From assembly GCA_018059685.1 (NCBI GenBank), contig JAGOXN010000003.1:1-38727 (forward strand): a stretch of 38,727 nucleotides of DNA. The letters are read 5' to 3'. Under the pieces are notes generated by a model. The model did not search any database. It had not been told where the DNA came from and saw only the letters and a program-made list of their open reading frames with translations. How positions within the stretch are numbered: position 1 is the first letter of the stretch; the number at the start of each line of letters is the position of its first letter. Positions 4,782 through 18,226 of the stretch are shown here, one piece after another. Both the position numbers and the translations under genes were made by a program. Source of the stretch: Steroidobacteraceae bacterium (GTDB taxonomy: Bacteria > Pseudomonadota > Gammaproteobacteria > Steroidobacterales > Steroidobacteraceae).

Positions 4782-6239
4782 TCAGAATCGCGGCAGGTGT
4801 GCAAACGGCAGCCTGCCTCCGTGGACCCGCATCGCTCCGTAATCCGCGCAGCGGGCGTGCGTCGGCACGGCCTTGCCCGGATTCAGCAGGCCGTCGGGGT
4901 CGAACGCACGCTTCACGTCGTGAAAGACCGCGAGTTCCTCCGGGCTGAACTGCGTGCACATCGGTCCGAGCTTCTCCACGCCGACCCCGTGCTCGCCCGT
5001 GACCGTCCCTCCCACCGCGACGCACAGCTCGAGGATCTCCGCACCGAGCTGCTCGGCGCGCTCGACCTCGCCGGGTCGGCCCGCGTCGAACAGGATGAGC
5101 GGGTGCAGATTGCCGTCGCCGGCGTGGAACACGTTCGCGACCGGCAGCCCGGCGCCGCGCGCCAGCGCATCGATGCGTTCGAGCACGTCCGCCAGGTGTC
5201 GGCGCGGAATCGTCCCGTCCATGCAGAAGTAGTCGGGCGCGAGGCGGCCCACCGCCGGGAAAGCCGACTTGCGTCCGGACCACATTCGCAGTCGCGCGGC
5301 CTCATCGGTTGCGACCTGCAGGCCAGTCGCCCCGCATCCGCCGAGCAGGCCCACGACAGCCTCGAGTTCCCGCTGCACCTCGTGGTCGGGACCGTCGAGC
5401 TCGCAGAGCAGCAGCGCCGCGGCATCGCCGGGGTAACCGCAGTTCGCGAAAGCCTCGGCCGCGCGGATCGCCGGCGCGTCCATCATCTCGAGCCCGGCCG
5501 GCACGACGCCGGAGGCGATGATGCGGCCGACGGCCTCTGCGCAGCTGCGCACGTCGCCGAACGCGGCCATCAGCAGCTCCACCCGCTCCGGCAGCGGCTC
5601 GAGGCGCACCGTCGCTTCGAGCACGACCCCGAGCATGCCTTCCGATCCCGTGAGCAGTGCGAGCAGCGGCAGGCCCGGCGCCTCGCCCGAGGTCGCTCCG
5701 AACTCGAGCAGCTCGCCGTCGATGGTGGCCACGCGCAGCGCGAGCAGGTTGTGAACGGTGAGTCCGTGCTTGAGACAGTGAACCCCGCCGGAATTCTCCG
5801 CCACGTTGCCGCCGATCGTGCAGGCCACCTGGGAGGAAGGGTCCGGGGCGTAGTAGAGCCCGTGCGGCATCGCGGCGTTCGAGATCGCGAGGTTCGTGAC
5901 GCCGGGCTCGACCCGCGCGAACCGCCGCGCCGGATCGAGTTCGAGGATACGGTCGAGCCGGGTCAGCACGAGCAGCACTCCACCGGGGACCGGCAGCGCC
6001 CCGCCCGACAGGCCGGTGCCCGCGCCGCGCGCGACGACCGGCGTCGCATGGCGGCGGCAGGCACGCAGCACCCGGATCACCTGTTCGCGCGTGCGGGGCA
6101 GGACGACGATGTCTGGCCGCCGCCGCTGGGTGTTGAGTGCGTCGCATTCAAACGGGGTGCAGGCCTCCGCTGCCACCAGCACGGCGTCGCTGCCGAGTGC
6201 GGCACGCAGGCGGCGCACCAGTGTCGGGTCAGGTGCCAC
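4782..6239 (-). CDS. glcD: Glycolate oxidase catalytic flavoprotein subunit GlcD
   Basis: A 485-residue FAD-linked oxidase. The N-terminal FAD_binding_4 domain contains [18 protein letters not shown] near residue 65, [18 protein letters not shown] near residue 135 and [12 protein letters not shown] near residue 190. The C-terminal oxidase domain has [14 protein letters not shown] near residue 375 and [14 protein letters not shown] near residue 420, the histidine-bearing active-site loops of the D-2-hydroxyacid dehydrogenase family. It oxidises glycolate (and often D-lactate). Start is GTG at 6239, overlapping the 3' end of rpiA by 11 bases, so translation is probably coupled to rpiA. Order glcD-glcE-glcF supports glycolate over D-lactate. 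Confidence 0.93.
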
Positions 6240-6894
6240 GCGTCATCGTCACGATGCCCGTGTCCGTCCCGACGAGCAGCACGTCTGCGGGACGCCGTGC
6301 GAACAGGCCCACCGTGACGACCCCCGCGACCTGATTGATCTCGCCCTCGAGGGCGACCGGGTCGCCGATCACCAGGCCGCGTACGTCCAGGATGTGGTTG
6401 CCATTATCGGTCACGACGCCCTCGCGCCATGCCGGATCGCCGCCGAGCCGCACGATCTGTCGCGCGACGTGCCCCCGGGCCATCGGGATCACCTCGACGG
6501 GCAGGGGAAAACGGCCGAGGCGGGCCACGACTTTCTGCTCGTCCACGATGCACACGAAGCGGCGCGAGGCGGCCGCGACGACCTTCTCGCGGGTGAGGGC
6601 GCCGCCGCCGCCCTTGATGAGGTGCAGATCCCGGGTCGCCTCGTCGGCACCGTCGACGTACACCTCGAGTTCCCCGGTCGCGTTCAGGTCGAGCACCGCG
6701 ATGCCGTGGGCCGTCAGGCGCTGGGTGCTGGCGGTGGAGCTCGAGACCGCGCCGGCGATGCGGTGACGCAGGGCGGCGAGCCCCTCGATGAAGAAATTCA
6801 CGGTGGAACCGGTGCCGACGCCGACTATGGCGCCGTCGCGGACGAACTCGAGCGCTGCTTCTGCGGCACGCTGCTTCTTCAGGTCCTGGTTCAT
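6229..6894 (-). CDS. rpiA: Ribose-5-phosphate isomerase A
   Basis: A 221-residue cytosolic enzyme (E. coli RpiA is 219) interconverting ribose 5-phosphate and ribulose 5-phosphate in the pentose phosphate pathway. Motifs are [16 protein letters not shown] near residue 24 (phosphate loop), VDGADE near residue 81 (catalytic acid region) and [19 protein letters not shown] near residue 93 (catalytic Glu and Lys). The start at 6894 is preceded by a G-rich stretch (GGGGGGCGC) that may serve as ribosome site. Its 3' end overlaps glcD by 11 bases. A hairpin at 6916-6941 lies just upstream and may insulate it from the small lysine-rich gene. Confidence 0.95.
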
Positions 6895-6915
6895 GGGTTG
6901 CGCCCCCCGGAAACA

Positions 6916-6941
6916 ACTGTGCCCGCTTTCGCGGGCACAGT
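6916..6941 (-). terminator. Intrinsic-terminator-like hairpin between the lysine-rich gene and rpiA
   Basis: An 11-bp perfect stem (ACTGTGCCCGC/GCGGGCACAGT) with a GAAA loop on the minus strand, followed by TGTTT. The U-tract is short, so it may leak into rpiA. A second hairpin (arms 6946-6952 and 6958-6964) overlaps the stop codon of the lysine-rich gene just before it. Confidence 0.6.
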
Positions 6942-6962
6942 CGTCAAGCTTCGTCGTGAAGC

Positions 6963-7037
6963 TTACTTCTTCTTGGCGGCCTTCTTCGGCTTCGCCTTCG
7001 CCTTAGCCTTCTTCGCTGCCTTCTTCTTCGCTGCCAT
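6963..7037 (-). CDS. 24-residue lysine/alanine-rich basic protein
   Basis: A very small gene: ATG at 7037, TAA at 6965-6963. The product is built almost only from Lys and Ala: 13 lysines, 9 alanines, one proline (P17) and the initiator Met; it begins [10 protein letters not shown]. All lysine codons are AAG. The sequence resembles the tails of bacterial histone H1-like and AlgP-type proteins, so nucleic-acid binding is likely but unproven. ATG at 7037 has GGAG nine bases upstream; an in-frame ATG at 7052 would add MEIET but has no ribosome site. Support for a real gene: a candidate promoter at 7074-7102, an AT-rich leader unlike the GC-rich surroundings, and a terminator-like hairpin downstream. 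Confidence 0.65.
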
Positions 7038-7073
7038 TGTCTCAATCTCCATGTCGGGTTAGTCCGGGCGCAG

Positions 7074-7102
7074 TATTTACAGAAATCAAAACCCGATTGC
7101 AA
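7074..7102 (-). promoter_or_regulatory. Candidate promoter of the lysine-rich small gene
   Basis: On the minus strand TTGCAA (7102-7097) and TAAATA (7079-7074) are separated by 17 bases. The predicted start near 7067 gives a leader of about 30 bases to the ATG at 7037. The segment 7071-7102 is clearly AT-rich against its surroundings. Confidence 0.45.
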
Positions 7103-7208: not shown

Positions 7209-7673
7209 TCACTCGATCGAAAGGACGAAGCGCCACTCTTCGCGCGTCACCGGAGTCACCGACAATCGGTTGCCTCGTCGCAGGATCAGCATCCCGGCGA
7301 GCGCTCCATGCGCATGTTTGCGCAAGTCCTCGAGCGTGATCGGCGGGTCGACGCGTCGCTCGAGTCGCACGTCGACGCAGTACCAGCGCGGCGCGCGCGC
7401 GTCGCTGCCCGGGTCGAAGTAACGGTGCTTCGGATCGAGCGCTGCCGGCTCCGGGTATGCCGCGCGCACGATGCGCACGATGCCGACGATGCCAGGTACC
7501 GCGCAGCTCGAGTGATAGAAGAATCCCCGGTCGCCGACGCGCATGCCGTCGCGGATCATGTTGCGCGCCTGGTAGTTGCGCACGCCGTCCCAGGCCGCCG
7601 TGGAGTCAGGCGCCCGGGCGAGGTCGTCGATGCTGAACGCATCGGGTTCCGACTTGAACAGCCAGTACTTCAC
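7209..7673 (-). CDS. EVE domain-containing protein
   Basis: A 154-residue single-domain protein of the EVE/PUA-like family (thymocyte nuclear protein 1 type). The signature is at the N-terminus: YWLFKSEPDAFSIDDL, then WDGVRNYQARN near residue 29, MRVGDRGFFYHSS near residue 44 and GIVGIVRIVRAAYPE. The domain ends with RLSVTPVTREEWRFVL. EVE proteins bind modified bases in RNA or DNA. Its ATG overlaps the stop of fau (ATGA, 7670-7673), implying translational coupling. The ligand is not deducible here. Confidence 0.92.
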   Translation of the reverse strand: MKYWLFKSEPDAFSIDDLARAPDSTAAWDGVRNYQARNMIRDGMRVGDRGFFYHSSCAVPGIVGIVRIVRAAYPEPAALDPKHRYFDPGSDARAPRWYCVDVRLERRVDPPITLEDLRKHAHGALAGMLILRRGNRLSVTPVTREEWRFVLSIE

Positions 7674-8338: not shown

Positions 8339-8528
8339 TGGCGCCACCCGCCTGTGCCGTCGTGGGCCATTGCTCTCGACAAGAGCAATAGACGGGGAAG
8401 GCCGCGGCACTTAAGGCTTCCCGCTCGAGGCGGACTTGCACAATGTTGCCGACTGGCCGGCTCCCCTGGGTGTTGGACTTAAGGTCGAGAGGTAACCCGG
8501 ACCACGTCGAACACTGCAGGCGGCGCCA
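8339..8528 (-). ncRNA. ssrS: 6S RNA (RNA polymerase regulator)
   Basis: The 190 bases between zapA and fau have the position, size and landmarks of 6S RNA. The closing stem is formed by TGGCGCC..CCTGCAGTG at the 5' end (8528-8512) and CACAGGCGG..GGCGCCA at the 3' end (8356-8339). GGGAAGCCTTAA (8422-8411) matches the conserved GAAGCCUUAA segment of E. coli 6S RNA, and a GC-rich interrupted rod lies between. 6S RNA mimics an open promoter and binds sigma-70 RNA polymerase in stationary phase. Exact ends are approximate. No convincing separate promoter is visible, so processing from the zapA transcript is possible. Confidence 0.85.
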
Positions 8529-17954: not shown

Positions 17955-18190
17955 GCCCGTCCGGAGAGAGAGAAAGGGGACATTCCGTATTTCGCTGCCT
18001 GGCGCGACCGTGGCAGCCGGCGAATCCGGAATCTCCCTTTTTTCCGCCGAAGGCGCAACCCGCCCGGAAACGCTCAGGCAAAGGAACGGCGACGCCTGAT
18101 GGGCTCTGGAGAGCGGCCCCCGCGAGGGGCCCACCGAAGGGGTGCGGCGCCGGATCATCGGCACCCGATCTCTCAGGTCACAGGACAGAG
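17955..18190 (+). promoter_or_regulatory. Tandem glycine riboswitch (two aptamers)
   Basis: Two consecutive glycine aptamers precede gcvT. Aptamer I: P1 arm CGTC (17958-17961), GGAGAG (17963-17968), CCGAAGG (18047-18053), CTCAGG (18073-18078), AAAGGAAC, and the closing P1 arm GACG (18091-18094). Aptamer II: P1 arm CTCTG (18104-18108), GGAGAG (18108-18113), a P2 hairpin of about 18 bases (CGGCCCC/GGGGCC), CCGAAGG (18134-18140), CTCAGG (18172-18177) and closing CAGAG (18186-18190). Aptamer I has an unusually long P2: AAAGGG..ATTCCG (17973-17987) pairs with CGGAAT..CCCTTT (18027-18040), then TTCGCTGCC with GGCAGC..CGAA inside. Glycine binding classically turns on gcv genes. Confidence 0.93.
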
Positions 18191-18191
18191 G

Positions 18192-18226
18192 GGCGGCAGG
18201 TCTTCAAGGGCCTGCCGCCTTTTTTT
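18192..18226 (+). terminator. Rho-independent terminator of the riboswitch expression platform
   Basis: A 9-bp GC stem GGCGGCAGG/CCTGCCGCC with a 10-base loop, followed by seven T residues (18220-18226), 32 bases before gcvT. It starts one base after the aptamer II P1 stem. This suggests transcriptional control, but the competing antiterminator pairing is not obvious by eye. Confidence 0.9.

Follow-up and report, generated by a model that had tools for sequence, protein, structure and literature searches.

Organization of the locus

We analysed a stretch of 38,727 nucleotides of Steroidobacteraceae DNA (the window, meaning this whole stretch at its full length). On its minus strand, 6S RNA, ygfA, an EVE-domain gene, a micro-ORF rich in lysine and alanine, and rpiA follow one another in this order. 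The features of the locus, all on the minus strand, are:

8341-8525, minus strand: 6S RNA gene (RF00013, 63 bits), in its usual position shortly before ygfA
Between the 6S RNA and EVE genes, minus strand: ygfA, 5-formyltetrahydrofolate cyclo-ligase, assigned by position and sequence
7209-7673, minus strand: EVE-domain protein gene (Pfam PF01878, E = 2.6e-53), the upstream neighbour and synteny anchor
7072-7102, minus strand: candidate promoter, -35-like TTGCAA (7102-7097), 17 nt, -10-like TAAATA (7079-7074)/AATACT, conserved in relatives
7046-7066, minus strand: near-invariant 5' leader CGGACTAACCCGACATGGAGA, holding the Shine-Dalgarno sequence GGAG (7050-7047), from an alignment of 38 loci
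6963-7037, minus strand: Lys/Ala micro-protein ORF, 24 aa, an exact ATG-to-TAA frame conserved in the family
6915-6942 (to 6911 with GTTT), minus strand: hairpin GACTGTGCCCGC-GAAA-GCGGGCACAGTT, then GTTT, from fold and covariation
6229-6894, minus strand: rpiA, ribose 5-phosphate isomerase A (Pfam PF06026, E = 1.8e-57)

Elsewhere in the window, a glycine riboswitch (RF00504) at 18096-18198 on the plus strand lies directly upstream of apparent gcvT, gcvH and two gcvP genes.

A 24-residue Lys/Ala frame with a conserved promoter and leader

The 24-residue Lys/Ala frame of the original prediction was confirmed as an exact, complete ATG-to-TAA frame at 7037-6963 of the minus strand, and the spaced ribosome site claimed for it was located as the GGAG at 7050-7047, 9 nt before the ATG. 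The product contains 13 Lys, 9 Ala and 1 Pro in its 24 residues, and is compositionally disordered without a folded domain. Its Lys fraction of 0.54 was by far the highest in the window, where the next unrelated ORF reached 0.13, and no ORF of 20 or more residues exceeded a Lys fraction of 0.14 in simulated windows with the same first-order make-up as the real one (n = 60). This indicates that the composition is not a matter of chance. The frame is shorter than gene finders usually handle. A second in-frame ATG lies upstream at 7052, and a start there would give a product of 29 aa. We rejected this start and regard 7037 as the likely start codon, because the ATG at 7052 is part of the conserved leader and is out of frame in most relatives.

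The claimed promoter, TTGCAA and TAAATA spaced by 17 nt, is present as described and is conserved. The -10 region was kept in all 38 aligned loci and the -35-like TTGC in most of them; relatives mostly carry TTGCTTG...TGTATATACT, and the family consensus is CTTGCTTG..TGTATATACT. A generic scan for the sigma-70 consensus returned 0 promoters, the candidate being too weak for it, and the promoter call therefore rests on conservation. The leader that follows is conserved beyond the needs of a plain untranslated leader and has essentially a single occurrence per genome. A multi-gene regulon was rejected, as the -10/leader pattern had no convincing second copy, the one match with 2 mismatches lying before an unrelated gene. 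We also rejected a CsrA site formed by the two GGA motifs of the leader, the first of which is absent from several long-form leaders (see below).

Conservation within the family

The EVE gene and rpiA served as anchors to read the slot between them in relatives, alongside a strict pattern (leader, GGAG, ATGGC, Lys codon) and a relaxed one. Counting a genus as positive by any of these routes, a Lys/Ala frame encoding a peptide of 14-26 aa was kept upstream of rpiA in 24 of the 25 sampled genera of this Steroidobacteraceae-type family. The frame expected there by the original prediction had thus not been lost in close relatives. The lone exception was a single genome, 74% complete. The strict pattern matched 133 of the 200 genomes examined from the family, almost always at a single place in each, and the reversed control pattern gave 0 matches. 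The relaxed pattern added genomes missed by the strict one, including G019, in which the EVE gene is gone from this spot and the micro-ORF still lies between ygfA and rpiA. The adjacency of micro-ORF and rpiA persists at L217, a locus that EVE has left.

Across 84 loci, the product had 14-26 aa, with a Lys fraction of at least 0.52 and a combined Lys and Ala fraction of at least 0.77, and the frame ended in KKK-stop in every one. The shortest form among the family loci has 14 residues. The assembly to which the window belongs consists of 446 contigs. Collapse of a repeat during assembly was excluded as the origin of the short form, as two single-contig genomes (G018 and G035) carry it. Some record titles did not match gene content: L117, L098, L112 and L122 are titled as Candidatus Planktophila, Rhodospirillales or Klebsiella pneumoniae, and the names of these MAG records look wrong. 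L117 carries the Steroidobacteraceae-type short form.

Selection on the encoded peptide

We examined nucleotide variation by codon position within length classes of the peptide. Among 20 distinct DNA versions of the 16-aa class, 2 of 15 columns varied at the first codon position, 1 of 15 at the second and 12 of 15 at the third (Fisher p = 5.5e-6). The corresponding counts were 4, 3 and 16 of 20 in the 21-aa class (p = 7.8e-6) and 0, 0 and 4 of 16 in the 17-aa class (p = 0.009). The test was not significant for the more diverse 22-aa class, in which residues vary too (p = 0.10). One identical 16-residue peptide was encoded by 12 different DNA sequences. The sequences in these tests are not independent, some being close relatives, and the period-three pattern is clear nonetheless. 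This third-position bias strongly indicates that the micro-ORF is translated and that its product is under purifying selection.

A covarying hairpin before rpiA

The original prediction also gave the gene its own terminator-like hairpin. The hairpin itself is real: it has a stem of 12 bp with a GAAA loop, of which the end pair is G-U and the other 11 are Watson-Crick pairs, and the region folds with z = -5.0 relative to shuffles. Both sides had changed in 5 of the 12 pairs with 100% of cells paired, and no shuffle reached the covariation score; the 12 sequences used were hand-picked as distinct variants, so that they show compensation and not its frequency. The hairpin core was present in 82 of the 84 loci, 22 to 80 nt past the stop codon, and as a single copy in the window's genome.

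The terminator part of the claim did not hold as stated, as the U-tract is degraded and rpiA follows closely. The rpiA start codon lies 20 nt past the hairpin in the window; across 70 family loci its median distance from the core is ~46 nt. In the short-form family, the T-run after the hairpin is replaced by a stem extension and GTTTC. We regard the element that separates the micro-ORF from rpiA as a putative attenuator or degraded terminator. Given the degraded T-run and the short distance to rpiA, rpiA is probably transcribed through the hairpin, in one transcription unit with the micro-ORF. Most loci offer rpiA hardly any space for a promoter of its own, if any at all, which makes read-through likely, or else transcription that starts further upstream. 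The hairpin probably lowers the level of rpiA relative to the micro-ORF. Several sister families with a long form of the gene have a GCCCGC..GCGGGC hairpin with an intact T-run after it (loci L044, L046, L048 and L103). Between the long- and short-form families, the change in gene length seems to have been accompanied by one in terminator strength.

Long Lys-rich proteins at the same position

Lys-rich ORFs of 94-195 aa occupied the slot in families f2, f3, f4, f5, f9, f10, f11 and f14, sharing with the micro-ORF the position between EVE (or ygfA) and rpiA. We built an nhmmer profile of the promoter and leader of the short-form family without any coding sequence. At E < 0.05, 10 of 24 long-ORF loci had a match to this profile just ahead of the ORF, the best being L048 (1.7e-6), L046 (1.8e-6), L045 (9e-6), L035 (2e-5), L032 (5e-5), and L044 and L098 (3e-4 each). 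In 32 control loci without a long Lys-rich ORF, the profile found no match. Because synteny and homologous upstream DNA agree, the micro-ORF is best read as an orthologue of the long Lys-rich genes that was miniaturised family-wide. The predicted likeness to a free-standing tail of H1-like/AlgP proteins was borne out in part: synteny and the promoter/leader tie the gene to long H1-like proteins, and its resemblance to AlgP is one of composition only.

Two families were without the gene or without the synteny; in Lysobacteraceae and Rhodanobacteraceae, rpiA comes directly after EVE. Some genomes from outside the order also have long Lys-rich ORFs close to EVE, in most cases with no rpiA alongside; for this reason the long form was probably the ancestral state, from which the short form arose. 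In a poorly resolved RpiA tree the short form was clustered, but 3 changes were needed, and the tree does not establish that shortening happened once. A search of the family for other H1-like genes with a long protein as query was uninformative, as it missed known long orthologues too. A DNA pattern for KKKxxKKK, which KKKPAA-type repeats escape, matched 0 places in the window's genome, at most 4 in family genomes and as many as 28 in other genomes of the order. Several genomes (G041, G050, G051 and G040) have multiple loci with KKKxxKKK-type repeats, so that Lys-repeat proteins or tails are common elsewhere in the order.

Proposed function of the micro-protein

We consider it probable that the locus is a translated, conserved gene for a cationic micro-protein, a miniaturised orthologue of a long H1-like protein, which acts as a free polycation on polyanions and is made above the level of RpiA. 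The product would carry about 13 positive side chains and would bind DNA or RNA, possibly also polyphosphate, by electrostatic attraction independent of sequence, in the manner of the Lys/Pro/Ala tails of AlgP and H1. A hairpin that partly terminates a single transcript would leave more micro-protein than RpiA. Judged from composition, polyanion binding is the most likely mechanism. DNA binding is known for a C-terminal fragment of AlgP and for KPAA peptides, and AlgP itself is found in association with polyP granules (PMC9239181). The window's genome encodes a polyP kinase, which permits a polyP role of the micro-protein. A length of 14-26 residues may be too short for a stable complex. More tentatively, at somewhat below even chances, we propose that throughout the family the H1-like protein has shrunk to a free cationic peptide (14-26 residues) and that this peptide retains the role of the long form, neutralising or compacting polyanions in a protamine-like way.

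Attenuator leader peptides of the trpL type combine a short ORF, a hairpin and then a metabolic gene, and the micro-ORF matches them in having a hairpin between a short ORF and a metabolic gene. The gene might be a translated leader acting in cis, in which translation of the Lys-rich ORF sets read-through of the hairpin and hence rpiA expression, the peptide itself having no function. We retain this possibility for its anatomy of promoter, short ORF, covarying hairpin and rpiA only 20 nt on, and the linkage to rpiA survives the departure of EVE. Cationic nascent peptides slow ribosomes (PMC9207662). We nevertheless judge it unlikely: the sister-family orthologues, likewise arranged, are full-length proteins of 94-195 aa and not leader peptides, rpiA (PF06026) lies outside the pathway of the encoded amino acid, and no link of lysine supply to rpiA is known. 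The variable distance from stop codon to hairpin core also means that stalling at the stop would in many cases leave the hairpin uncovered by the ribosome, and a competing antiterminator was not seen in the fold predicted from a single sequence.

Conservation of the RNA itself, with a near-invariant 5' leader and a strongly conserved, covarying 3' hairpin that both exceed the stop-to-hairpin stretch, would also suit a small regulatory RNA of about 170 nt containing the ORF by chance. The codon-position pattern argues against this, as do the maintenance of the Lys/Ala frame with length changes in whole codons and the long ORF that takes its place in sister families; Rfam returned no match even at E up to 5. 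We consider such an RNA very unlikely. A decaying, functionless remnant of the long H1-like gene seems hardly credible: the micro-ORF is far shorter than its orthologues and differs in length among genera, but 24 of the 25 genera sampled keep promoter, Shine-Dalgarno sequence, frame and KKK-stop intact, most change in the 16-, 17- and 21-aa classes was synonymous, and no Lys-rich remnant follows the stop codon.

Relation to known proteins

No Pfam, NCBIfam or Rfam family matched the short form above cut-off, and four long forms tested had no Pfam or NCBIfam match; composition filters may hide matches in both cases. The gene is not described in the open-access literature searched. It resembles the long proteins of the same slot (for example L032, L035 and L045), with which it shares position, homologous promoter/leader, kind of composition and a hairpin before rpiA. 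The long proteins differ in consisting of 94-195 aa of repeats, often with more Arg, Thr and Val, and in having an intact T-run after the hairpin in several cases.

The C-terminal KPAA domain of AlgP from the gammaproteobacterium Pseudomonas aeruginosa is similarly Lys/Ala-rich, of low complexity, cationic and H1-tail-like. AlgP, however, has a separate N-terminal region and a KPAA tail of 154 residues (PMC9239181), whereas the micro-protein comprises 14-26 residues in all, has few prolines, no KPAA repeat and no N-terminal domain, and is encoded beside rpiA. We therefore ruled out filing the micro-ORF, with 24 aa in total and one Pro, as an AlgP; it is tail-like in composition only. Chlamydial Hc2 and similar bacterial H1-like proteins (PMC2848022) are also lysine-rich and vary in size by repeat number. 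Hc2 differs in its length of 165-237 aa; no sequence-family match to the micro-protein was found, and the likeness is one of kind, with no common descent implied.

H1-like cationic proteins are a known kind, here apparently reduced to 14-26 residues across a family. The locus provides a conserved gene far below standard annotation length, backed by selection on the peptide and by synteny. It also offers a natural length series at one position under a homologous promoter (14, 16, 22 and 26, then 94 to 195 residues), which lets one ask what length of Lys/Ala tail is enough for a bacterial H1-like protein, and makes it testable whether H1-like tails act alone without any folded domain. If the micro-protein is indeed a reduced H1-like protein, few conserved bacterial proteins would be shorter, and it would represent an H1 tail in a naturally minimal form.
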